A stretch of 55,402 nt of DNA from the IMG/VR virus record IMGVR_UViG_3300029448_000052, positions 1 through 55,402 of that record. The stretch is one strand, 5' to 3'. The translations under genes and the position numbers were made by a program. Below, in pieces: positions 11,489-36,112 of this stretch. Source of the DNA: a virus. Every line of letters begins with the position of its first letter. Position 1 is the stretch's first letter. The notes beneath the pieces were generated by a model. It did not search any database and was not told the origin of the DNA. It saw only the letters and a program-made list of their open reading frames with translations.

Positions 11489-12051
11489 TGGAACCCATAT
11501 CCACAGCTTTAGCTGGTATCGCATTATTTAAAAGTGCCGTTGATGGTATTAAAGGTGCTATCGGCACAGCAAAAGATGTGGGTGAGATAGCTGGTTTTAT
11601 CGACCACCTTTTTGAAGGTGAGAAACAAGTACAGCAAAAACGTAACCAAAAATCAACTCAAACAGTTGGTGATCAATTTGGTATAAAATCAGTAGCACAA
11701 GAAATCATAGATGCAAAATTAGCTAAAGAACAAATGCAAGAGATAGCAACTATGGTAGATATGCGCTTTGGTCATGGAACATGGCGCAGTATTGTAGATG
11801 AAAGGGCTAAACGTATACGTGAAGCTAAAGAAGCTGAAGCATTAGCTCGTAGAGAAGCAGCTAGAAAACACAAAGAGTTACAAGAAAACATAAAACAAGC
11901 GATGATGATAATATCAGTTATCCTTGTAATGGTGGGATTTTTTGTAATCATGATAATTTGGGTTGCAAAAGCATCCTTAAATGATCCACTCTTTATACCC
12001 CTCAGCCAACACTCTGCTACTAATATCAATTTTACTTCGCAAAGCCTTTAA
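11488..12051 (+). CDS. Membrane-anchored protein with coiled coil, end of late cluster
   Basis: 187 residues, start overlapping the previous stop. Residues ~85-135 are charged and helical (AKRIREAKEAEALARREAARKHKE), followed by one strong membrane segment (~139-160, MMIISVILVMVGFFVIMIIWV). Small phage proteins of this kind are common after the ejection genes. The last 25 codons overlap the 3' end of the convergent helicase gene, so the final residues may be poorly constrained. It could be a virion or inner-membrane protein; no holin-type architecture is evident. Confidence 0.55.
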   Translation: MEPISTALAGIALFKSAVDGIKGAIGTAKDVGEIAGFIDHLFEGEKQVQQKRNQKSTQTVGDQFGIKSVAQEIIDAKLAKEQMQEIATMVDMRFGHGTWRSIVDERAKRIREAKEAEALARREAARKHKELQENIKQAMMIISVILVMVGFFVIMIIWVAKASLNDPLFIPLSQHSATNINFTSQSL

Positions 12052-13422
12052 TACTTTTTCATCTACTGTTTTTTCTGTAACAATATCTACATAGGTTACT
12101 TTATTAGTTTGTCCTATACGGTGTGCTCTATCTTCACTTTGCAACCTAACTTCAAGATCGTATCCATTACTGTAATATATGACTGTTTTAGCCTCAGTAA
12201 GAGTTAGACCATACCCACCTGTTCTTGGTTGTCCCACAAAAAATCGTAGAGGGTTAGCAGGGTCTTGGAAGCGTTCTACAATAATCTGGCGTTCCTCTGC
12301 TGGGGTAGCACCGTAGAATAATTCTACGCTATCCTCACCATATTCTTTGGCAAGAGCTTTTTGTATTATCTGTAGATCATGTGTAAAGTTACCCCATATA
12401 ATAACTTTACCATCTGTTTCTTCAAGAACAGACATTAGTTCAGGTAACTTATTACTTGGAACTTCAACCATTCTGCCATCTTCAAATTTAGCAAACCCAG
12501 AGCATACTTGTTGTAATCTAAGTATTTGAGTTAGCACAGTAGGCGCAGATATAAGCCCACCATCATCCCCTTCTACAATAGCAAGAGCCATAGTTTTCAT
12601 TTGCTCGTACAGTTTCTTTTGCTCGGTAGTGAGCTCTACTGTTCTGCGAGTGTAGACTTTATCTGGTAGATCTAAACAATCTTCTTTACGTACTCTGTAA
12701 CTGAAGGTTTCTATCATACCATTTAATTCATCTAAATTTTGGTACCCAACAATTTGGTTGAAGCTGTGCGCTCCCATTGTACGACGCATCATTTTAGCGT
12801 ACCTGTTTTGGAATGTCCAAAAGCTGCCTTGCCCAAGGATATAATGCTCTAAAAACTCACACTGAGTGTATAAATCAAGAGGCGATTTAGTTACTGGCGA
12901 ACCTGTAAGTATCCTACGATACGGCGCATTTTTACCTATTCTTATCAAGTTTTTAGTGCGTTGGGCTGTCCTACTTTTTATAGTAGTGCTTTCATCTACT
13001 GCAAGCATAGCCCTATGCGTAAGTAGAAATTTATCTGCTGCTTCTAAACCACGTTTAGTGCTAAGAGCTTCTACATTCATAAGGAATATTTGTAAGTCTT
13101 CAGTAACTTGCCTGAGTGTATCTAACTCTTTTCTTTTCTTTTGAGTTTGCTCAGGTGACCATGTAACAATGTTCATGTTTATATGGTCAGGCATATGGGT
13201 TGGTAATTCTTTACGTTCCCAGTTTCTATATACACCTTTAGGTGCAATAATTAGAGCACTATCAAGTTCACCTTTATCGTACAACATAGCTATTGTATCG
13301 ATAAGAACTTTAGATTTGCCTGTACCCATATCCATAAACAGAGCGTAATACGGTTTATTCCATGATTTTATTAAAGCCTCGAGCTGATGCTCATAGGGCT
13401 TATGCTTAAACTTGTACCTCAT
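11977..13422 (-). CDS. SNF2-type (SF2) DNA helicase/translocase
   Basis: 481 residues on the minus strand, ATG (complement of 13420-13422) after AGAGGAAGTT. Walker A is DMGTGKSK (residues 31-38). The DExx box appears as AVDESTTIKS, motif III as LTGSPV, and motif VI as SEDRAHRIGQTNKV, the SNF2/Rad54-type signature. Such phage helicases act in replication, recombination or branch processing, with ATP hydrolysis driving movement on DNA. It is the only convincing minus-strand gene. It overlaps the convergent gene at 11488-12051 by 75 bases and shares a divergent promoter region with the replication operon. Identification as a helicase is firm; the exact role is open. Confidence 0.88.
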   Translation of the reverse strand: MRYKFKHKPYEHQLEALIKSWNKPYYALFMDMGTGKSKVLIDTIAMLYDKGELDSALIIAPKGVYRNWERKELPTHMPDHINMNIVTWSPEQTQKKRKELDTLRQVTEDLQIFLMNVEALSTKRGLEAADKFLLTHRAMLAVDESTTIKSRTAQRTKNLIRIGKNAPYRRILTGSPVTKSPLDLYTQCEFLEHYILGQGSFWTFQNRYAKMMRRTMGAHSFNQIVGYQNLDELNGMIETFSYRVRKEDCLDLPDKVYTRRTVELTTEQKKLYEQMKTMALAIVEGDDGGLISAPTVLTQILRLQQVCSGFAKFEDGRMVEVPSNKLPELMSVLEETDGKVIIWGNFTHDLQIIQKALAKEYGEDSVELFYGATPAEERQIIVERFQDPANPLRFFVGQPRTGGYGLTLTEAKTVIYYSNGYDLEVRLQSEDRAHRIGQTNKVTYVDIVTEKTVDEKVLKALRSKIDISSRVLAEGYKEWII

Positions 13423-18971: not shown

Positions 18972-20000
18972 ATGGCACATTTAGTTGAGACTATGGCGTA
19001 TGCAGGACAAGTCCCTTGGCACGGTTTAGGAACCGCTGTTGATGGTAATATGTCACCCCAAGAAATGCTGGTTGCGGCTGGTATTGATTGGACAGTTAGT
19101 AAGCGTCCTGCTTATACAGTTGACAAACCCAACTGTTGGAATATTATCGACCCAACTGGTGAGGCTGGTTTTATCCGCGCACCAGATAGCCACTTTCTTG
19201 TGCGGGATAGCGATAACAAAGTGCTTTCGCATTGTGGCGAGGGATATGTACCTTTTCAAAATGCTGAAGTTATGGACTTCTTTAAAAAGTTTACCGATGC
19301 AGGGCATATGACTATGGAAACTGCTGGCAGTTTGAAAGAAGGTAAAGATATATGGGGGTTAGCAAAGTTAACTGATAAGTTCAGCCTTAGTGGTGATGAT
19401 GAAGTTAAGGGTTACTTGCTTTTGAATAATAGCCACCAAGTAGGTAAAGCGATGACTATTATGTTCACACCTATTCGTGTTGTGTGTAACAATACTCTTA
19501 CACAGGCTATGAGTATGGAGGGCAACCGCTTCCGTGTATTACATTTGCAGATGTTCGATGAAGAAATACAGAAAGCCGCTGAAGAGGCTTTGGGTATTAG
19601 TGGTCAACAAATGACCAAGTTCAAAGAGCAGTCTGAGTTCTTGGCAAATAAACGTGCAAAAGAGTTTGATGTTGATAACTTTATTGCAGAGTTGTTCCAA
19701 CCCCACTTACTAATTGAGCGAGCCAAGGCTTCTATAAAAGATGACCTACCACCTCTGCGTGATGAGTTCAAACGTACTGCTGAACTTGTTGAAGAAGCAT
19801 TACACACGAGTCCTGGTGCGAGTATGAAGTCTGCCAAGGGTACTTGGTGGGGTGCGCTCAATGCAGTAACTTATGTTGTAGATCACCAAAAGCGTTCACA
19901 GGCTGAGGGTAATGCTTTGCATTCAGCTTGGTTTGGCTCTGGTGCTAATACTAAACGTAAAGCACTGACTAAGGCTTTGGAGTATGCCGAAGCTGCATAA
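18972..20000 (+). CDS. DUF932 family protein
   Basis: 342 residues, ATG after AGAAAGGAGTAATTTATA. The opening MAHLVETMAYAGQVPWHGLG followed by a VSKRPAY segment, then HFLVRDSDNKVL and MTIMFTPIRVVCNNTL, matches the DUF932 / phage-plasmid-like TIGR03299 family. Members are widespread on phages and plasmids. The function is unknown; a link to DNA metabolism or counter-defence has only been guessed from context. It is followed by a terminator-like hairpin. Confidence 0.75.
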   Translation: MAHLVETMAYAGQVPWHGLGTAVDGNMSPQEMLVAAGIDWTVSKRPAYTVDKPNCWNIIDPTGEAGFIRAPDSHFLVRDSDNKVLSHCGEGYVPFQNAEVMDFFKKFTDAGHMTMETAGSLKEGKDIWGLAKLTDKFSLSGDDEVKGYLLLNNSHQVGKAMTIMFTPIRVVCNNTLTQAMSMEGNRFRVLHLQMFDEEIQKAAEEALGISGQQMTKFKEQSEFLANKRAKEFDVDNFIAELFQPHLLIERAKASIKDDLPPLRDEFKRTAELVEEALHTSPGASMKSAKGTWWGALNAVTYVVDHQKRSQAEGNALHSAWFGSGANTKRKALTKALEYAEAA

Positions 20001-20080: not shown

Positions 20081-20698
20081 ATGTTCTATGCAATATGTGA
20101 AGGTTTTCCAGGAAGTTCTGGTCCAGCCTACATTGTTTATAAGTTTCCTACGCTAGAATCTATGAAGCCGTGTGAAGCTGTAAATGAATATAGTATTATT
20201 TACAATGGCGATTCGCATAGGCAGCTAATTGATTTCTGCTCTTTAGAAGAGCTAATTGAGATAGCTACCTGTTTGTGTATTGCGTTTACTGGCACGGAAG
20301 AAGTTAAATTTGTTTCTCTCCAACAAGCGGCTGACTATGTCCACTCAGTAGTGGTAAAGAAAGCTAAATTATGGAAACCCGAAAAGGAGTCTGATATGTC
20401 TACTGTTCATGTAGATCAATTTAATAATAAAGCACAGAAGCATGAAGCAGAGGTAAAAGAAACTAAAAAACCTCGCACTCGTTTTAGGAATGATGCTCGT
20501 ATCATTCTGTTAAAAGATACACCTACTGTGCGTGAAGGCACTAATCGTTTTCGTAATATGAAAGTTATTATGGAAAGTGCTACAGTTGGTGAAGCAATAG
20601 CTAAACTTCGCGCACTTACTCCTGCTCCAGGATCTGGGGTGGATATTAAGATAGCATGCGACGCAGGTGTTATAAAACTAGACTGGCAAGAGGAATAG
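20081..20698 (+). CDS. Hypothetical protein, possible internal start
   Basis: 205 residues, ATG after AGAAAGGGAGATGTAA. The first ~100 residues look globular. The last 100 begin at an internal ATG (20396) that has its own good ribosome site (AAAAGGAGTCTGAT). This half carries a basic stretch (KKPRTRFRNDARIILLKDTP) and a helical VGEAIAKLRALTPAPGSG segment. The C-terminal half could therefore also be made as a separate ~100-residue protein. No family recognised. It lies immediately upstream of the base-modification genes. Confidence 0.55.
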   Translation: MFYAICEGFPGSSGPAYIVYKFPTLESMKPCEAVNEYSIIYNGDSHRQLIDFCSLEELIEIATCLCIAFTGTEEVKFVSLQQAADYVHSVVVKKAKLWKPEKESDMSTVHVDQFNNKAQKHEAEVKETKKPRTRFRNDARIILLKDTPTVREGTNRFRNMKVIMESATVGEAIAKLRALTPAPGSGVDIKIACDAGVIKLDWQEE

Positions 20699-20700
20699 CT

Positions 20701-21597
20701 ATGTTACCCGAAGCTGTAGAAAGTTACTTCGGCTGGATAAATGAGCGGCACTCAATATATCAACGCAGATTATTGGGTGCGCCACCACCTTGGACTAATG
20801 ATTCTATCCTGCAAGAATATAAGTTTACAAACCCTTTCCGTGAAAACGATAGGGTAACTGTATGGATGCGTGATAAATGGACAAAGCCAAATGATAACCG
20901 CCCACATGGTGAGATGATATTTAACTGTTGTATGTTTCGTATGGTTGGCACAAGTGAGTTTGCTGAAGAACATGGGTGGGTGGAAGATTTTAACCCACAA
21001 AAAACCAAACACCTTATTGAGTCAAGACTTTCTCTTGGTAAAAGAACATTTACTGGTGCATATATAATCACTAACCAAGGACTCAAAGCACCAAAATCTG
21101 AGGTAGTAGTTGACCACTTCCTTACGCCAATCTGGGAAAATAAAGAAACGCTGGCGAAGATTGCCCAAAAAACGCAGTCGCTCCAAGCGTTACATGAAGC
21201 GATGGGTGCGTATAAAGGGTGGGGAGGAGGAGGTTTTATGTCATACGAGGTGGTTACCGACCTCAACTACACACCTGTACTGGACAAGGCAAAAGACCGT
21301 TTTACTTGGGCTAACGCAGGTCCGGGAGCTATACGAGGAATTAACCGTATCCTCGGAAGAGATTTAAAAAAGGGTATGACCCAGCCTACAGCTAATGAGA
21401 ATATGGTTAGATTATTAAAACATGCACCCTATCATGTTTTAGGACATATCCCACTTAAACAAATAGATATGCGTACTATTGAGCATAGCTTATGTGAGTG
21501 GGATAAATATGAGCGTGTAAGGTTAGGGCAAGGTAGACCAAGAAGTGTTTATCGCCCTACTTTATTAACAGATACACCAAAAGGAGCTGTAGAATGA
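20701..21597 (+). CDS. DNA base hypermodification protein (HMUDK_hel / alpha-GPT-PPlase family)
   Basis: 298 residues from ATG at 20701, chosen because GAGGAATAGCT lies just upstream (an in-frame start at 20656 has none). The pattern FGWINERHSIYQRRLLGAPPPW...DSILQEYKFTNPFRENDRVTVWM, later GGFMSYEVVTDLNYTPVL and WANAGPGAIRGINRILGR, matches the phage family first predicted as alpha-glutamyl/putrescinyl-thymine pyrophosphorylase and later linked to 5-hydroxymethyl-dU DNA kinases. It is an all-helical fold related to DNA glycosylases. No P-loop is present, so the kinase half of fused versions is absent. The next gene, a glycosyltransferase, overlaps its stop. A role in modified thymine formation is strongly suggested; the reaction itself is inferred. 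Confidence 0.7.
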   Translation: MLPEAVESYFGWINERHSIYQRRLLGAPPPWTNDSILQEYKFTNPFRENDRVTVWMRDKWTKPNDNRPHGEMIFNCCMFRMVGTSEFAEEHGWVEDFNPQKTKHLIESRLSLGKRTFTGAYIITNQGLKAPKSEVVVDHFLTPIWENKETLAKIAQKTQSLQALHEAMGAYKGWGGGGFMSYEVVTDLNYTPVLDKAKDRFTWANAGPGAIRGINRILGRDLKKGMTQPTANENMVRLLKHAPYHVLGHIPLKQIDMRTIEHSLCEWDKYERVRLGQGRPRSVYRPTLLTDTPKGAVE

Positions 21598-22868
21598 AGT
21601 TTCTAATGACAATGTTTCAAATACAAGATTACGGTGGAATCATTAACCATGCTGAGTATCTTGCTAAAGGTTTAAAAGAGTTAGGCCATGAAGTTGATTT
21701 TACTATGCTCGTGCCTAAACATAAAGTAGCCGCTAAAAGTCCCCCACCAAAAAACTTTGACCAATATCGTAAGGTTGGCACAGGATATCTACACCATCAA
21801 GCTAGGGGGTGGGCTGGTTTACCTAAGATCCCTTATCTTTCTAAATACCAAAGGGATTTGTTTAAACAGAAGTGTAGCAAGTATGATGCTGTTTTATGGC
21901 ATATCCCTGTACCCACCATGAGTAAGGAAAATAAAGGTATTACCGATTGGTTAGATTTGTATGACCACGGTACTAAAAACATAGCTATCATACATGATGG
22001 CAATTTGCCTGAGTTATACCCACACCTAATCCATGTACGCGAGATGTTCCATTCTGCTGTATGTGTACATGAGTCAGCTATGATTTCTGGTAGTATGTTA
22101 CCCATACCCCGCAAGCTGATAGTAAATCCGTTTGATGTTGGTATGGCAGATGGTTGGACTGACTTTGAAAAACGTGATGGTTTTGCAGCGGTGCAAGTTT
22201 TTAAAGCATGGAAACGTGTAGATACTTTAGTCCGCGCGATTAGATACATGACCCACAAAGAACAAAAGCTAATCGGTGGTGAAGGTATAGAATACAGATA
22301 CATGACAAGCCGTGATAAATGTAAGCCTAAATATTTTGACGAGCTAGGCGAACGCATTTGGGATAGAGCCAAGCGTTATGGTATGGAGCATTTAGGAACT
22401 GTGCCAAATGATAAAGTGTTTGAAATACTAAAACAGGTAAAGCTACAGATTGACCCGAGCTACAGTAAAAAGTATTCTAATTTTGGCGCACATTTTAATA
22501 GGACAACAGTAGAAGCAATACTCTGTGGTGCTGTGCCTGTGGCTACTGATTGGGGTATGCGGGATAGTGAAATATTTAAAGCAGGACAAAACTATATACA
22601 AATCCCAGCAGAGTGTGAACCGTTTAAGTTTGCTGACATTATAGATAATGCCATACATGATAAAGATCAATGGCTTCGTATAAAAGAAAACAATCTAAAA
22701 TTACTAGAGTTGTTTGATATGCGTAATGTAGCTCAAAGCTATGTTGATCTGGTAAACAATACACAAGAACTACTTATCGGCACTCCAGATGCTAAAGCCA
22801 TGCAAAAATGCCATAAAAACCTAGAGTTCTTCGGTATTAGCTCTTCAGACACTGCTCGAGTGGTTTAG
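21594..22868 (+). CDS. GT-B type glycosyltransferase, probably DNA-base modifying
   Basis: 424 residues, ATGA overlap with the preceding gene. The N-terminal Rossmann half has the typical sequence YGGIINHAEYLAKGLKELGH. The C-terminal half has AAVQVFKAWKRVDTLVRAI and the nucleotide-sugar binding motif NRTTVEAILCGAVPVATDWG (residues ~302-321), as in GT4-like enzymes. Phages use such enzymes on DNA bases or on cell envelope sugars. Here it is translationally coupled to a base-hypermodification protein and followed by a thymidylate-synthase homologue. A sugar on hydroxymethyl-uracil is therefore the most economical reading. The acceptor is an inference. Confidence 0.72.
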   Translation: MKFLMTMFQIQDYGGIINHAEYLAKGLKELGHEVDFTMLVPKHKVAAKSPPPKNFDQYRKVGTGYLHHQARGWAGLPKIPYLSKYQRDLFKQKCSKYDAVLWHIPVPTMSKENKGITDWLDLYDHGTKNIAIIHDGNLPELYPHLIHVREMFHSAVCVHESAMISGSMLPIPRKLIVNPFDVGMADGWTDFEKRDGFAAVQVFKAWKRVDTLVRAIRYMTHKEQKLIGGEGIEYRYMTSRDKCKPKYFDELGERIWDRAKRYGMEHLGTVPNDKVFEILKQVKLQIDPSYSKKYSNFGAHFNRTTVEAILCGAVPVATDWGMRDSEIFKAGQNYIQIPAECEPFKFADIIDNAIHDKDQWLRIKENNLKLLELFDMRNVAQSYVDLVNNTQELLIGTPDAKAMQKCHKNLEFFGISSSDTARVV

Positions 22869-22927
22869 TATTGTTTAGGCCACACACCTACTACCCCTAA
22901 CCTTTAACCACGTCGAGGAGGCGTTGT

Positions 22928-23905
22928 ATGCAGTCAATTTATGCAAGAGGAGTAAGCGAAGCTCTGTTTTTAGGTCAACAAGCCTTATTTTCGTCAGGTA
23001 AGGAAGTAAACACCCGAAATGGTTTAGCACTTGAGTTTCCTACCCCTGTTATGACAACTTATACCCATAGCAGGGAACGAGTTTTGTTTTACCCAGAACG
23101 TGATGCTAACCCTTATTTCCATTTAATGGAAAGTTTATGGATGTTAGCAGGACGAAATGATGTGCCTTGGATTTTAGGTTTTAACGGTCGCATGAATACA
23201 TATAGTGATGATGGTAAAACTTTCCACGGTGCTTATGGTTACAGATGGAGGGAATGGTTTGGTAAAGATCAGTTAAAGATTATTCTGTTTAGATTAGGCA
23301 CTTACCATAACGACCGTAGAGCTGTTTTAGGAATATGGGATCCTCACCAAGATTTAGTTGAAACTAATGATGGGAAAGATTACCCCTGTAATACCCAGAT
23401 ATATTTTTGGGAGCGTAAGGGTGAACTAAATATGACTGTAACTAACCGCAGTAATGATATGATCTGGGGTGCGTATGGTGCTAATGCTGTTCACATGTCT
23501 GTGCTGTTAGAGTATATGGCTGGGATGCTTGGATATGTTGTAGGCACATATTATCAATTTAGTAATAATCTTCATGCATATACAGATGTCTTAGAAAAGT
23601 TAGAAGGTATGCAAGCAGATTATGAACCTTACCTTACATTAGGTGATGATGGGTTGAGTTATAACCCACCAGCTTTAATTGATGATCCTGATACATTTGA
23701 CCAAGAGCTACAAAAATGGTTTTTAGATGAAGCAAGAGTGACTTACAATAATAGTTATTTAGGATCTACTTGTGGAAATATGCGTAAGTCATGGAGATTC
23801 TGGAAAAATAAAAGTTACGATAATGCTTTTCATTGTGCCAATGCAATAGAAGATCGTGCATGGCGTAGAGCCTGTGTGGATTGGTTGCAAAGGAGAATTA
23901 AGTGA
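22928..23905 (+). CDS. Thymidylate-synthase family enzyme (dUMP methylase or hydroxymethylase)
   Basis: 325 residues, ATG after GAGGAGGCGTT. Phosphate-binding DRRAVLGIW (R130-R131) and catalytic YPCNTQI (C154) are spaced as R126-R127/C146 in E. coli TS. NRSNDMIWGAYGANAVH follows with D177 and G181 in register, and NLHAYTD matches the H-x-Y site. GAYGYRWREWFG corresponds to the YGxxWR region. The residue aligned without gaps to dUMP-recognising Asn177 is Ala185, with Asn one position later, so substrate handling may differ. The product could be dTMP or 5-hydroxymethyl-dUMP; context favours the latter. Its stop overlaps the next start (GTGA). Confidence 0.78.
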   Translation: MQSIYARGVSEALFLGQQALFSSGKEVNTRNGLALEFPTPVMTTYTHSRERVLFYPERDANPYFHLMESLWMLAGRNDVPWILGFNGRMNTYSDDGKTFHGAYGYRWREWFGKDQLKIILFRLGTYHNDRRAVLGIWDPHQDLVETNDGKDYPCNTQIYFWERKGELNMTVTNRSNDMIWGAYGANAVHMSVLLEYMAGMLGYVVGTYYQFSNNLHAYTDVLEKLEGMQADYEPYLTLGDDGLSYNPPALIDDPDTFDQELQKWFLDEARVTYNNSYLGSTCGNMRKSWRFWKNKSYDNAFHCANAIEDRAWRRACVDWLQRRIK

Positions 23906-24261
23906 ATAGGGAAAAATATGAGGATTACATGAAGCGTAAATTAAAAGAAGAAGAAGTAAGCTCTGTTATTAAACAGGTTGGTAAGCTCAGTGTTTTAGAC
24001 CATGTTAAGTTGGAAGAAGCTGAACAATCTTATGGTGATAGTTGGAAGCAGCGCGGTGGTGTTGGTGCTTTTATGATGTTAGCTCGTAAATGGGATAGGC
24101 TTGAAAAACAAGTCACAGAACATAATTATGATGTGTTTAAAGCTATACAAGAAGATAACAGGCAGGAAGGTATAATAGATGATATACGTGATCTGCGTAG
24201 GTATTTATTTCTTGTAGAAGCGGAGATGATTTTACGCGGCAATGTCAGAAAACAAAAGTAA
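23902..24261 (+). CDS. Nmad1 (DUF1599)/MazG-like small protein
   Basis: 119 residues, GTG start overlapping the TS-like stop. It is helical, with the core YGDSWKQRGGVGAFMMLARKWDRLE followed by a segment ending IIDDIRDLRRYLFLVEAEM. The YGDSW...RKWDRLE...DIRDLRxY pattern resembles the nucleotide-modification-associated domain 1 group and, more distantly, MazG-like all-alpha nucleotide pyrophosphohydrolases, which use Asp/Glu helices to bind metal. It may hydrolyse an unwanted nucleotide (for example dTTP or dUTP) in the modified-base pathway. The family call is moderate; the activity is inferred. Confidence 0.5.
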   Translation: MNREKYEDYMKRKLKEEEVSSVIKQVGKLSVLDHVKLEEAEQSYGDSWKQRGGVGAFMMLARKWDRLEKQVTEHNYDVFKAIQEDNRQEGIIDDIRDLRRYLFLVEAEMILRGNVRKQK

Positions 24262-24418
24262 TTTAGATAAAGAAGTATTAGCCGAGTGCGAGTGCGGAAG
24301 AGAAACGAAGATTGTTACTTTCCGTAATCTTAAAAATAGATGGCCGATATGCAGTAAGTGCAAAAGGCCGATGAAAGTAAAAGGTAATGCAATACCCATT
24401 ATTTCAACCACCGACTGA
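24242..24418 (+). CDS. 58-residue zinc-ribbon protein
   Basis: ATG at 24242 to TGA at 24416, overlapping the previous gene by 20 bases and the polymerase start by 32. The product has a CEC pair (residues 16-18) and CSKC (37-40), a compact four-cysteine zinc ribbon, with basic residues between (RNLKNRWPI). Very short phage zinc ribbons of this type are common near replication genes. They may bind nucleic acid or bridge proteins. The tight overlap on both sides supports real translation; the role is unknown. Confidence 0.55.
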   Translation: MSENKSNLDKEVLAECECGRETKIVTFRNLKNRWPICSKCKRPMKVKGNAIPIISTTD

Positions 24419-26315
24419 GTGGGTTATGCCTGATGGCTACCCCGATATTTCTAGTGCTAAAGAAGTTGCTATTGATTTAGAAACACGCGATCCTAACCTT
24501 ACGACGATGGGAAGTGGCTGGCCTAGAAAAGATGGTCACATTATTGGGATAGCTGTGGCAACAGAAGGTGACCAATGGTACTTCCCCATCAGGCACGAGA
24601 TTGGTCCTAACTTTGATGTAAAAAGAACTTTAGGATGGTTAGCAGATGTTTGTAAAATTGATAGGACTTACGTTTTTCATAATGCTCCTTACGATGTCGG
24701 CTGGATGCTCGCAGAAGGTGTGCGTGTACAAGGAAAAATCATTGACACAATGGTCGTTGCGCCACTGTTAGATGAAAACAGATTCAGTTATGCTTTAAAT
24801 GCTATTGGTAGAGATTACCTGCAAGAGCGTAAAAGTGAAGTTGAGTTAAGGGAAGCAGCCGAGGCTTTTGGCGTAAATGCTAAAAGTGAGATGTATAAAC
24901 TTCCTGCTCATCATGTGGGAAAATATGCTGAACAAGATGCTGCGTTAACATTGAAACTCTGGCAGCATTTTAAAACACTAATAATAAAAGAAGATATTAA
25001 AGATATCTTTGAACTTGAAATCAATGTTCTTAAAACAATTATACCAATGCGCGAGCGTGGTGTCAGGGTTGATTTAGATAAATGTGAGCGTATAAAGAAA
25101 GAGTTGCTACAAAAAGAACAACAACTGTTAGGGTTGATAAAAAGACAAACAGGGGTAGAAGTAGAGATATGGGCGGCTGAAAGTGTATCTAAGGCTTTTG
25201 ATGCGTTAGACCTACCTTACAGTAAAACAGAAAAGACTGGTGCTCCTAGTTTTACTAAAGGGTTCTTAAGTAATCACCCTCACGAAGTCCCACAAATGAT
25301 TGTACAAGCTAGAGAATATCAAAAAGCACGTAGCACATTTGTAGATACTATACTTAAACACCAAATAAACGGACGTATACATGCTGAGCTGCACCCTTTA
25401 CGTAATGATGGGGGAGGCACGGTTACTGGTAGATTTAGCTATAGCAACCCTAATCTTCAACAAATACCAGCAAGGCATGGCGAAATAGGTCCAATGATAC
25501 GCAGTTTGTTTATACCAGAACAAGACTGTTTATGGGGCGCATTCGATTACTCCAGCCAAGAACCACGTATTGTTGTGCATTATGCTAAACTCATGGGCTT
25601 CAGAGGGGCTTCTGACTTTGCTGAACAATACAATGCTGACCCACGTACAGATTTCCACCAAATGGCGGCTGATATTGTGGGTGTCCCGCGTAAACAGGCA
25701 AAAGATATCAACCTTGGTTTATTCTATGGGATGGGTAGTAAAAAGTTAGCAGCGAGCCTTGGTTTAGAGTTTGAAGATGCTCAAGAACTGTTCGCCACAT
25801 ACCATGATAAAGTACCCTTTGTGCGTGAGCTTAGTGATTATAGCACTAATCGAGCTAACTCTCGTGGTGTTATCCGCACATTATTAGGGCGTAGGTGTAG
25901 ATTCGATAAATGGGAGCCTAATAAGTATGGGACTTGGAAGCCTATGACTTACCAAGAAGCCTACGCAGAACATGGTCCTGGAATCAAAAGAGCGTTTACA
26001 TACAAAGCTCTTAATAAACTCATACAAGGCAGCGCGGCAGATCAAACAAAAGCAGCGATGGTTGCTCTAGCTGATGAAGGCATACTACCCATGATTCAAG
26101 TACATGATGAGCTGGATGTATCTGTTGAGTCAGAAGAACAAGCAAAAAAGATAACTGAAATAATGCAAGATTGTGTTAAATTAGAAGTCCCTTCTATAGT
26201 GGATGCTGAGTTTGGTCCAAACTGGGGGGAAGCAAAACAAACTTTCACGGAAAAACCGTGGGTAAGAGGATTAAAAGATGGCAGCACAGAAATGCAGCAT
26301 AACATCACAAATTAA
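24387..26315 (+). CDS. Family A DNA polymerase with 3'-5' exonuclease domain
   Basis: 642 residues. Exonuclease: AIDLETRDP (D30, E32), HNAPYDVGWM and YAEQDAAL (Exo I-III), so proofreading should be intact; no 5'-3' exonuclease domain. Polymerase motif A is FDYSSQEPRIV. Motif B is RKQAKDINLGLFYGMG, with Leu at the position of E. coli Pol I Phe762. Motif C is QVHDELDVS. This is the replicative polymerase, working with the primase, helicases and SSB encoded upstream. Leu at the 762 position is a known natural variant of marine viral PolA, thought to change speed and discrimination. The next gene overlaps its end by 38 bases. Confidence 0.93.
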   Translation: MQYPLFQPPTEWVMPDGYPDISSAKEVAIDLETRDPNLTTMGSGWPRKDGHIIGIAVATEGDQWYFPIRHEIGPNFDVKRTLGWLADVCKIDRTYVFHNAPYDVGWMLAEGVRVQGKIIDTMVVAPLLDENRFSYALNAIGRDYLQERKSEVELREAAEAFGVNAKSEMYKLPAHHVGKYAEQDAALTLKLWQHFKTLIIKEDIKDIFELEINVLKTIIPMRERGVRVDLDKCERIKKELLQKEQQLLGLIKRQTGVEVEIWAAESVSKAFDALDLPYSKTEKTGAPSFTKGFLSNHPHEVPQMIVQAREYQKARSTFVDTILKHQINGRIHAELHPLRNDGGGTVTGRFSYSNPNLQQIPARHGEIGPMIRSLFIPEQDCLWGAFDYSSQEPRIVVHYAKLMGFRGASDFAEQYNADPRTDFHQMAADIVGVPRKQAKDINLGLFYGMGSKKLAASLGLEFEDAQELFATYHDKVPFVRELSDYSTNRANSRGVIRTLLGRRCRFDKWEPNKYGTWKPMTYQEAYAEHGPGIKRAFTYKALNKLIQGSAADQTKAAMVALADEGILPMIQVHDELDVSVESEEQAKKITEIMQDCVKLEVPSIVDAEFGPNWGEAKQTFTEKPWVRGLKDGSTEMQHNITN

Positions 26316-26811
26316 AACACTCACAACGGTCTGGGATGCCCAGTTTTTACTGAGGTACCACACTGTTGCGAATCAATCAGAAAGGCAAACCGTGGGAGCA
26401 CATTCATATGCAGTAAGTGTTTTGATAGATCAATTATGGCCTGATAGCACTAAACAACTGATAATGGCGGCACTATACCATGATGTGCCAGAAATAATTT
26501 TAGGTGATATTCCAGCTACAGCTAAATGGGCTTATCCAGAAATACAACAAGCCTTTGAAAAAGCTGAGAAAAAAGTATTTGATGACCTTGGTTTAATATT
26601 TGTACTTACCCCAGAAGAAAAATCACGACTCAAAATGGCAGATATGCTTGAGTTAGTTTTATATACTCATCGTCACTCACAGGGCAGTGATCAAATGAAA
26701 ATGATCATGCACTCAGGTATAAATTATTTATATGAAAAGTTTTCTTCACAAAAAGATTTTCAACCAATAAAAAAGGTTTTAGCTCACTACAATCTAGGAG
26801 GTGTACCGTGA
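26278..26811 (+). CDS. HD-domain nucleotidase (YfbR-like)
   Basis: 177 residues, ATG after AGAGGATTAAAAG, inside the end of the polymerase gene. HD metal site: H42 (VGAHSYAV), H68-D69 (ALYHDVPEIILGDIP) with E72 and D77, and a later KMADMLEL aspartate. This is the layout of YfbR-type 5'-deoxynucleotidases and related phage HD phosphohydrolases. It would remove phosphate(s) from deoxynucleotides. In phages with altered bases such enzymes can deplete the normal nucleotide. Next to PolA and the TS homologue, a role in excluding dTMP/dTTP or balancing pools is plausible but not shown. Confidence 0.75.
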   Translation: MAAQKCSITSQIKTLTTVWDAQFLLRYHTVANQSERQTVGAHSYAVSVLIDQLWPDSTKQLIMAALYHDVPEIILGDIPATAKWAYPEIQQAFEKAEKKVFDDLGLIFVLTPEEKSRLKMADMLELVLYTHRHSQGSDQMKMIMHSGINYLYEKFSSQKDFQPIKKVLAHYNLGGVP

Positions 26812-27139: not shown

Positions 27140-27637
27140 ATGAATATATTTATCATTGACTGGAACCACACGATCTGCGCTCAATGGCATTGCGATAAGC
27201 ATGTTGTAAAAATGCCACTTGAGACTACCCAAATGCTCAGCACTGTACACCATAGGCATAGTAATGATGGACCATACTTACCTGTTCATCAAAAACACCC
27301 TTGCACATTATGGGCTGGTCAAACAGTAGAAAACTACCGATGGCTTTGGCAGTTGGGTATCGCATTATGCAAAGAATATACTTATCGGTTTGATAAGACA
27401 CATGCTTGTGAGCGTATTCTTGCAATGTTACGCTGTCCACCAGTAGAATTGACTGCGAGGGGGTTTACAAAACCAGCTCAGGCAATGCCCGATGAGTATA
27501 AGCATTCTGACACGATAATTGCATACCAAGATTATTATATAAACGAAAAAGCGAGGATATGCTCATGGCGCAAAAGACCAATACCGCCCTTCATGGAAGA
27601 GATAATGTCATCCCCTTCATACCGAGAGACAGGTTAA
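27140..27637 (+). CDS. Conserved phage protein, His/Cys-rich (CAQWHCDKHVVKM family)
   Basis: 165 residues. A conserved N-terminal block CAQWHCDKHVVKMPLETTQML is followed by HHRH, HPCTLW, WLWQLGIALCKEYTYRF and AMPDEYK, then YQDYYINEKARICSWRKRPIP. I recognise this as a recurrent phage family, common in T4-like and marine phages, but recall no proven function. The clustered His and Cys suggest a metal site or catalytic centre. It overlaps the next ORF by ~70 bases. An AAAGAACAGTCTTT box lies upstream (27100) but without a clear -10. Confidence 0.6.
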   Translation: MNIFIIDWNHTICAQWHCDKHVVKMPLETTQMLSTVHHRHSNDGPYLPVHQKHPCTLWAGQTVENYRWLWQLGIALCKEYTYRFDKTHACERILAMLRCPPVELTARGFTKPAQAMPDEYKHSDTIIAYQDYYINEKARICSWRKRPIPPFMEEIMSSPSYRETG

Positions 27638-34843: not shown

Positions 34844-35260
34844 ATGACTGTAAAAACTGCTAAAAAATCAACTGCTAAAACTGTCGTTAAATCTGCTGAG
34901 TTAGTGGTCACTGATAAAGAAATCACCTATCCAGAAATCTGGGCATTTATCCAGGAGCATGCTGGTGGCAATGAGGCTAACGTCAAAATTGTGCCTCTTG
35001 ACAATGTTGACTTGGCAAGCGCAACGCCTGTCCCGTTTGGCTATGGTGGCAAGACAGGAGGCGTTCGTCAGGTTATACAAGATTGGATGCTTAAAGGTGT
35101 TGATGGTGATTTGTCGCTAAAAGCCTCTCTTAATAAAGCGGCACCATTAGGACACTCGCGTAAAAAGCCTGTCTGCTTACATGCTTTGATGCATGGGGGA
35201 TACAGCCCGTCCAGCAAATACTGGATGACACCATTCGTCAAACTTGTAGTCCAAGGCTAA
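34844..35260 (+). CDS. Lys-tailed accessory protein, paralogue 1 of 2
   Basis: 138 residues, ATG after AGAAAGGACATGTC. A basic N-terminal tail (TVKTAKKSTAKTVVKS) precedes a domain with ITYPEIWAFIQEHAGGN, VPFGYGGKTGGVRQ and PLGHSRKKPVCLHALMHGGYSPSSKYW. The same three blocks occur in the gene at 35665, so this is a tandem duplicate pair. No known family recognised. Own promoter, leader hairpin and terminator make it a self-contained expression cassette. Confidence 0.65.
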   Translation: MTVKTAKKSTAKTVVKSAELVVTDKEITYPEIWAFIQEHAGGNEANVKIVPLDNVDLASATPVPFGYGGKTGGVRQVIQDWMLKGVDGDLSLKASLNKAAPLGHSRKKPVCLHALMHGGYSPSSKYWMTPFVKLVVQG

Positions 35261-35583: not shown

Positions 35584-35611
35584 TTGTGCGCGACGCTAAA
35601 GTGTGCATAAT
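35584..35611 (+). promoter_or_regulatory. Promoter-like pair before paralogue 2
   Basis: TTGTGC (35584-35589), 16 bases, CATAAT (35606-35611), the same 16-base spacing as the AAAGA-box promoters, but the box itself is not recognisable. A GTAGCC/GGCTAC hairpin follows in the leader, then GTAGAAAGGG before the start. Confidence 0.4.
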
Positions 35612-35664
35612 AAAAATTGTAGCCGCTACTGGCTACCGCATTTAACCGTAGAAAGGGTTTATAA

Positions 35665-36112
35665 AATGCAAAACACTACTAAAGGCAAGGCAGCCAAAAA
35701 TGCCACTACTACTACAGCCGTTGTACCTGTAGCCCCTACATTGCAGCATACTGGCAATGAGCTAACCTATGCTTGCCTATGGGCGTTTATTAACGGCCAA
35801 GCTGGCGGCAATTTGCACAATGTGCAGGTAGTGCCACTTAGCAATGTTAAGTTAAACGACGCACAGCCAGTACCCTTTGGTTTTAATGGTAAAGCTGGCG
35901 GTGTGCGGCACCAAATACAAACTTGGTTGTTAAACGGTGTTAAAGGTAATAACAGCCTAGCCGCAATACTGGCGGCAGCTAAACCGCTAGGCCATAGCAG
36001 CAAAAAGCCTATTTGTTTACTTGCCATGTTAAATGGCGGCTACAGCCCTAGCAGTGCAGTATGGGGTACTGGCTACGTTAAACTGGTAGTGCAGCCCCAG
36101 CCTACCAAATAA
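35665..36112 (+). CDS. Lys-tailed accessory protein, paralogue 2 of 2
   Basis: 148 residues from ATG 35665, behind GTAGAAAGGGTTTATAAA; the frame is open upstream but without a ribosome site. N-terminal tail with Lys, Ala and Thr, then LTYACLWAFINGQAGGN, VPFGFNGKAGGVRH and PLGHSSKKPICLLAMLNGGYSPSSAVW, matching the gene at 34844. Codon choice differs visibly: GGC, GCC and AGC are frequent here and rarer in the paralogue, suggesting a separate origin before both ended up in tandem. Function unknown. Confidence 0.65.

Follow-up and report, generated by a model that had tools for sequence, protein, structure and literature searches.

In the pelagiphages of the HTVC023P type, a thymidylate synthase (TS) gene and an aGPT-PPlase1 gene lie beside the gene for the DNA polymerase PolA, at times joined by genes for a deoxynucleotidase and for a putative glucosyltransferase (PMC9599517, mSystems 2022), so that the kind of locus discussed here is already known. 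The DNA of phage M6 contains a base derived from 5-hydroxymethyldeoxyuridine (5-hmdU) (PMC6449724), and Bacillus phage SP-15 carries glucosylated dihydroxypentyluracil (PMC5977210). Here we analyze a stretch of 55,402 bases from an uncultured marine phage (IMG/VR record IMGVR_UViG_3300029448_000052; the whole stretch is called the window below), in which genes for an HMUDK_hel protein, a glycosyltransferase (GT), a TS homologue and a 119-amino acid protein directly precede PolA. We propose, with a probability of roughly 0.7, that this locus represents a kinase-free, glycosyltransferase branch of phage thymidine hypermodification, in which 5-hmdU would be incorporated into DNA and its hydroxymethyl group directly glycosylated.

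The PolA gene of the window has 63-68% nucleotide identity to those of Pelagibacter phages HTVC023P and HTVC027P, and the order primase-helicase-PolA is common to the window and HTVC023P. According to the passages of PMC9599517 on these genes, the HTVC023P-type phages are marine podoviruses that, like the window, have TS and aGPT-PPlase1 near PolA, whereas their putative transferase is of the hydroxymethylcytosine (HMC)-glucosyltransferase type and the window enzyme is GT4-type. Those same passages mention neither a single slot whose gene is exchanged one for one nor the residues of a hydroxymethylase, nor do they test whether the kinase is absent; set against them, the slot exchange, the residue evidence for a hydroxymethylase and the controlled kinase absence presented here appear new. 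The cassette of phages M6, YuA and PaMx11 likewise has HMUDK_hel (33-35% identity) and a TS homologue (43-45%) just before PolA, together with an HD-domain gene, and this M6-type core (dUMP hydroxymethylase homologue, HMUDK_hel, PolA and HD gene) is present in the window. M6 additionally encodes a P-loop 5-hmdU DNA kinase (PF18748), an amino acid:DNA transferase (ADDT, PF18724), Nmad5, and enzymes of the pyridoxal phosphate-dependent and radical SAM types. None of these is present in the window, and the GT of the window occupies the position of Nmad5 in M6. In Caudoviricetes sp. ctUhy936 (MW202897) a GT also adjoins an HD gene and a homologue of pyrimidine hydroxymethylases, but that GT is of the TET-associated glycosyltransferase (TAGT) type and HMUDK_hel is absent from the 11.4 kb read. 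The product predicted for the window resembles that of SP-15 in that the DNA contains a thymine derivative bearing a sugar; SP-15, however, relies on TS homologues of the flavin-dependent Thy1 type and on ten clustered genes akin to those for the synthesis of cell-wall polymers, and has no layout in common with the window (PMC5977210).

The three genes that carry the proposal are the following:

20701-21597, plus strand: HMUDK_hel, an aGPT-PPlase clade 1 protein of 298 amino acids (PF18723, E = 1.4e-50; orthologues; structural model)
21594-22868, plus strand: GT-B (GT4-like) glycosyltransferase of 424 amino acids, predicted to glycosylate 5-hmdU (PF00534, E = 4.8e-8; structural model; neighbourhood)
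22928-23905, plus strand: TS homologue of 325 amino acids, predicted dUMP 5-hydroxymethylase, with Cys154 as nucleophile, Asp151 (C-3) and Asn186 (PHROG 5131, 2.3e-102; PF00303, 1.7e-18)

The original prediction had described an ordered group of HMUDK_hel, GT, TS homologue and the 119-amino acid gene before PolA, and both the gene content and the gene order are confirmed by Pfam and PHROG profiles and by the open reading frames (ORFs). The individual assignments hold as well: HMUDK_hel scores 172.7 bits, where the cut-off is 25, the GT-B gene overlaps it by ATGA, and the TS homologue is recognized by both profile collections. The check proposed at the time, comparison of 20701-21597 with PF18723 and structure prediction, gave the profile match and a fold that matches members from phages with hypermodified thymine. 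Purine-rich ribosome-binding sites are found upstream of 4/4 cassette gene starts, and a gap of 59 bases separates the GT (which ends at 22868) from the TS homologue (which starts at 22928). The same gene order recurs in 74 loci with a complete region, indicating that the arrangement is more than chance; this number includes the window and counts loci rather than independent events, since some come from near-identical contigs.

Signature residues and orthology to the M6 and YuA proteins (44-45% identity) make dUMP hydroxymethylase the most likely function of the TS homologue. A structural study of the T4 dCMP hydroxymethylase identifies as the hydroxymethylase signature an Asp at the third position ahead of the catalytic Cys, a position held by Leu in TS, and Asp179 as the determinant of dCMP versus dUMP (PMC6400193). 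The window protein has the signature as D151-Y-P-C154, and its Asn186, of the uracil type, aligns with the TS Asn at the base-recognition position, where MilA has Asp. Asp(C-3)/Cys together with this Asn was found in 23/23 aligned homologues and in 74 of the 76 proteins surveyed, as well as in those divergent proteins that were checked. The best PDB match is the CMP hydroxymethylase MilA (1.7e-14), and the best true TS is found at 7.5e-10.

The model of the GT (pLDDT 88.9) has a GT-B fold, and its top PDB matches are the GT4 enzymes BshA, HepE and PimA. T4 AGT in complex with hydroxymethyluracil-containing DNA (1y8z, 1y6g; TMq 0.59-0.61) comes next among the GT matches with equal TM-scores (TMq 0.59-0.62 when the AGT entry 1xv5 is included), at about 12% sequence identity. 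T4 AGT is thus like the window enzyme in its GT-B fold, while AGT is known for its action on 5-hydroxymethylcytosine (5-hmC) DNA. A tblastn search of 50,697 deposited phage records with the GT returned no relative. Among viral contigs, 52 loci with a relative of the GT were found; a TS is within reach in 50 of these and the remaining two have HMUDK_hel. The association of the GT with TS or HMUDK_hel persists down to 30-43% GT identity and in a different gene order (GT-HEL-TS, loci L145-L147; loci of related contigs are numbered with L). Because these searches began from the GT side, the association is independent of the choice of loci by HMUDK_hel. A PF00534 scan of the genomes missed the GT of the window itself; its counts were not used, and neighbourhoods were surveyed locally instead.

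The PF18723 match of HMUDK_hel spans profile positions 3-276 of 281 and so covers the whole domain, and the protein is 33-38% identical to the orthologues of M6, PaMx11 and Sonora. Its model (pLDDT 90.9) finds phiRSL1 (8.4e-13), phiW-14 (E = 3.8e-11) and SP10 (E = 1.3e-8) as fold matches in BFVD. The aGPT-PPlase1 proteins of phiW-14 and SP10 have the same fold as the window protein, but that of SP10 is entered under the name 5-hmdU DNA kinase with a length of 637 amino acids, whereas HMUDK_hel of the window, at 298 amino acids, is without the kinase part. The same BFVD search also matched an ADDT protein (9.8e-5), with endonuclease III at rank 19, and the ADDT profile matches HMUDK_hel relatives in their C-terminal half (hmmscan, 4e-4 to 7e-3). 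The link to ADDT comes from hmmscan and the fold search; aligning HMUDK_hel with four ADDT sequences by hhalign gave no information on it. Nothing significant was found for the model in PDB, where helix-hairpin-helix (HhH) DNA glycosylases lead the matches (best E = 0.39, probability 0.54); residues 161-188 of the model form a helix-GWGGGGF-helix that resembles an HhH element. The best-conserved residues are common to phages with a kinase (M6-type) and to phages without one. Because of the ADDT and HhH-type matches and these common residues, we take HMUDK_hel to act on DNA in every 5-hmdU system, probably as a helical protein of the HhH type. Its presence alone carries no information on a kinase: M6, PaMx11, Sonora and Pam3 encode it separately, it appears fused to a kinase only in some phages, and it is retained in phages that have no kinase.

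To control the search for the kinase, we used six kinase-bearing phages (M6, PaMx11, Sonora, Pam3, AIIMS-Plu-RaNi and ViI), and the PF18748 profile matched 6/6. In contrast, it matched 0/45 records comprising the window and 44 related records, some of which are 60-69 kb long. ADDT (PF18724) was not found as a separate gene in the window or the related records, and the weak ADDT matches that were traced sit within HMUDK_hel ORFs. The absence of a P-loop kinase partner claimed in the original prediction is therefore upheld within the 55,402 bases, where, UvrD helicase aside, no kinase-like protein has a Walker-A-like motif. The prediction had added that the chemistry would be simpler than, or different from, that of amino-acid-modified thymines. 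The part of this that stands is that neither the kinase nor the ADDT family was found; that the chemistry is simpler is something we infer. The claim that thymine is replaced or decorated, probably with a sugar on hydroxymethyluracil, also survives in qualified form: a modification based on 5-hmdU is the best reading and a sugar is probable, given the TS residues, the M6/YuA/PaMx11 orthology, the AGT-like fold of the GT and the presence of TAGT in the slot of sister phages.

Further support for a role of the GT in this pathway comes from the same position in related loci. The order HMUDK_hel-[slot]-TS-NM1-PolA-HD (NM1 being the 119-amino acid protein) is nearly constant across the 74 loci, while the slot is filled by a GT of the window type in 28, by TAGT with a radical SAM/SPASM protein following it in 27, by a protein family called c24 in 13 and by another, c46, in four; it is empty in two, both of which have a GT homologue ~6 kb upstream. 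TAGT, a recognized nucleobase GT family (PF20691, 9.5e-16), occupies the same slot in sister phages; it is separate from the window GT and absent from the window. Full-length comparison of c24 with the window GT gave a weak hhalign match (E = 5e-4, probability 30%), and on sequence grounds c24 is a probable second, GT-B-like enzyme family. The c46 proteins (332-338 amino acids; L089, L092, L093 and L094, e.g. L089:8889-9905) have no match in Pfam, PHROG or PDB, and hhalign with the window GT gave nothing; c46 is not called a GT here. When slot type is placed on the PolA tree, at least seven changes are needed, against a possible minimum of four. The clearest example of such a change is the pair L018 and L020: their sequences are 96.6% identical through the final nucleotide of HMUDK_hel, the GT follows in L018 and c24 in L020, and identity is 91.8% from before TS onwards. 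As judged from these gene comparisons, the slot between HMUDK_hel and TS holds two to three unrelated putative GT types that are exchanged cleanly. That relatives replace the sugar-adding gene alone suggests that a one-cassette swap may be enough for these phages to change how their DNA is chemically coated. More broadly, and at somewhat less than even odds, the 5-hmdU core of marine phages (HMUDK_hel, PolA, dUMP hydroxymethylase and HD nucleotidase) may stay the same while they swap one GT cassette, sometimes with a donor-making gene, thereby changing the sugar coat.

Additional genes accompany some slot types. In L020 (13304-14128) and L021, a cytidylyltransferase/mannose-6-phosphate-isomerase-type cupin gene is found between PolA and the HD gene, alongside c24, in a setting otherwise near-identical to the GT-type L018; the sugar donor that goes with c24 may be a product of this gene. 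Although TAGT is its usual partner, the radical SAM/SPASM protein is found beside c24 or a divergent GT as well (L163:4922, L165:4907, L144:7811), and therefore moves between GT types. An FkbM-type methyltransferase is present with c24 in L029 (10950-11597), L061 (9988-10728), L066, L067, L068 and L070, where an O-methylated sugar is possible.

Taken together in a pathway, the TS homologue would convert dUMP to 5-hydroxymethyl-dUMP with methylene-tetrahydrofolate and water, a step well supported by the residues and the orthology. The HD nucleotidase may then remove competing deoxynucleoside monophosphates such as dTMP, host kinases would produce 5-hmdUTP, and the neighbouring PolA would incorporate it instead of dTTP. 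From its fold, the gene order and the slot exchange, the GT is predicted to flip or bind 5-hmdU in DNA and to transfer the sugar of a host nucleotide-sugar onto the hydroxymethyl oxygen. With the oxygen glycosylated directly, a phosphorylated intermediate, the kinase and an amino-acid transferase would therefore not be needed. HMUDK_hel, a member of the aGPT-PPlase/ADDT superfamily, may carry out a step common to all hmdU phages, such as recognition or presentation of the base or conversion of leftover hmdU. The acceptor, the incorporation and the identity of the sugar are what we infer. As an outcome, virion DNA would be shielded from host nucleases, and exchange of the slot gene would alter the decoration. 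If this is true, abundant marine phages bear glycosylated thymine and change the sugar while the rest of the genome stays, a move at the level of DNA chemistry that resembles antigenic variation. It would also mean that there are several glycosylated thymines not yet seen chemically, that new DNA bases and DNA glycosyltransferases may be usable as labelling tools, and that HMUDK_hel has a kinase-independent function in a family named after that kinase.

Several points weigh against direct glycosylation of 5-hmdU in DNA. The chemistry of the pathway is predicted from the genes of an uncultured virus, the origin of 5-hmdUTP from host kinases is assumed, and no sugar-nucleotide enzyme was recognized in the window. 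In the fold search with the GT model, GT4 enzymes that act on small molecules rank ahead of T4 AGT. A further point is that HMUDK_hel is retained in phages that have no kinase. The contig may be incomplete (55.4 kb, compared with 60-63 kb for several relatives), so that an end could be missing. Work on phiW-14 warns that TS and hydroxymethylases are hard to tell apart by sequence (PMC5977210), and the Ser/Thr found two residues before the active-site Tyr as a signature of dCMP enzymes is replaced by Gly in the window protein (Gly101-Ala-Tyr103). The same Gly is present in M6 and ViI, however, and the Ser/Thr criterion may hold for dCMP enzymes only. An unlikely alternative that retains 5-hmdU is that its decoration is other than a simple DNA glycoside, being either a larger moiety made by accessory enzymes or the result of a GT acting on the free nucleotide before incorporation. 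Relatives do carry accessory genes with their GTs (radical SAM/SPASM with TAGT, c24 and a divergent GT in L023, L163 and L144; FkbM and cytidylyltransferase/cupin genes with c24), and the thymine derivative of SP-15 bears glucose and other groups (PMC5977210). The slot of the window, however, has the GT alone with none of the relatives' accessories nearby, and the GT model resembles a DNA GT, although a nucleotide acceptor is still compatible with it.

Three further explanations were weighed. If the locus served ordinary nucleotide metabolism, the TS homologue would supply dTMP, the GT would modify a protein or a host surface glycan, and their adjacency would reflect a replication module. TS genes are indeed common in phages (1,818 records matched) and GT4 enzymes act mostly on non-DNA acceptors, yet the C-3 Asp signature, the presence of HMUDK_hel throughout the group, the different GT families in one slot and the persistence of the GT family with TS across large divergence make this quite improbable; the pelagiphage study likewise sets such loci apart from TS genes without an aGPT-PPlase1 (PMC9599517). 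A cytosine pathway, with the TS homologue as dCMP hydroxymethylase and the GT acting on 5-hmC as in T4, would agree with the T4 AGT-like fold, with the match of the slot relative TAGT to PHROG 842 ('beta-glucosyl-HMC-alpha-glucosyltransferase') and with a CMP hydroxymethylase as the best PDB match. We consider it very improbable, as the Asp required for cytosine is Asn in all aligned TS homologues and in every divergent one checked, the orthologues come from phages that modify thymine, and hmdU systems are where HMUDK_hel belongs; cytosine hydroxymethylation was rejected on Asn186. Least probable of all is an M6-like, kinase-dependent hypermodification whose kinase and transferase come from the host, from a gene too divergent to be recognized or from a missing end of the genome. 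In its favour, the window does encode HMUDK_hel, a protein that takes its name from the kinase and has its best-conserved residues in common with the M6 type, and the record may be a fragment, but beyond HMUDK_hel neither a kinase nor an ADDT match was obtained in the window or in related records of up to 69 kb, while the six controls matched the kinase.

Downstream of the TS homologue, the gene set continues through PolA and beyond it to the HD gene:

23902-24261, plus strand: conserved 119-amino acid protein (NM1) with a YGDSWKQRGGVGAFMMLARKWDR motif (strong conservation; Pam3_54 homologue)
24242-24418, plus strand: 58-amino acid CxC/CxxC zinc-ribbon-like ORF that overlaps the PolA start (from the sequence)
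24387-26315, plus strand: family A DNA polymerase PolA, the conserved right-hand neighbour (PF00476, 2.5e-61)
26278-26811, plus strand: candidate HD-domain, YfbR-like 5'-deoxynucleotidase (PF12917, 4.7e-11; PHROG 7076, dATP triphosphohydrolase, 1.4e-17)

The ORF at 23902-24261 and its GTGA overlap onto the TS gene are as first described, but the label given to it, Nmad1/MazG-like, is not supported: neither an Nmad1 nor a MazG Pfam match was obtained in any orthologue (0/26), although HMMER may miss very remote kinship. The window protein itself matches no Pfam family, and its sole homologue of any length in phage records is Pam3_54, annotated 'nucleotide modification'. The locus end proposed at 24418 belongs to the separate 58-amino acid ORF and not to the 119-amino acid gene; this ORF has no Pfam match above the cut-off, and its membership of the cassette is doubtful. 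An HD gene comes after TS in M6, PaMx11 and Pam3. The match of the window HD gene to a dATP triphosphohydrolase PHROG raised the possibility of a Z-genome (2-aminoadenine), which we set aside: the HD gene also belongs to thymine cassettes, and no adenylosuccinate-synthetase-like gene was recognized in the translated ORFs, for which no dedicated search was made.

Other genes of the window lie around the locus. A DUF932 gene (18972-20000) and a gene without an assigned family (20081-20698) precede HMUDK_hel in most relatives, and a gene at 27140-27637, matching PHROG 624 'DNA binding protein' (1.5e-59) and, weakly, Pyr_excise, is kept near the locus in most relatives. Further away, two adjacent paralogous ORFs (34844-35260, which has no Pfam match, and 35603-36112) have a common C-terminal GGYSPSS...YVKLVVQ region. 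The genome is almost wholly plus-strand; the largest minus-strand gene, at 11977-13422, encodes an SNF2-type helicase (PF00176, 1.4e-23).

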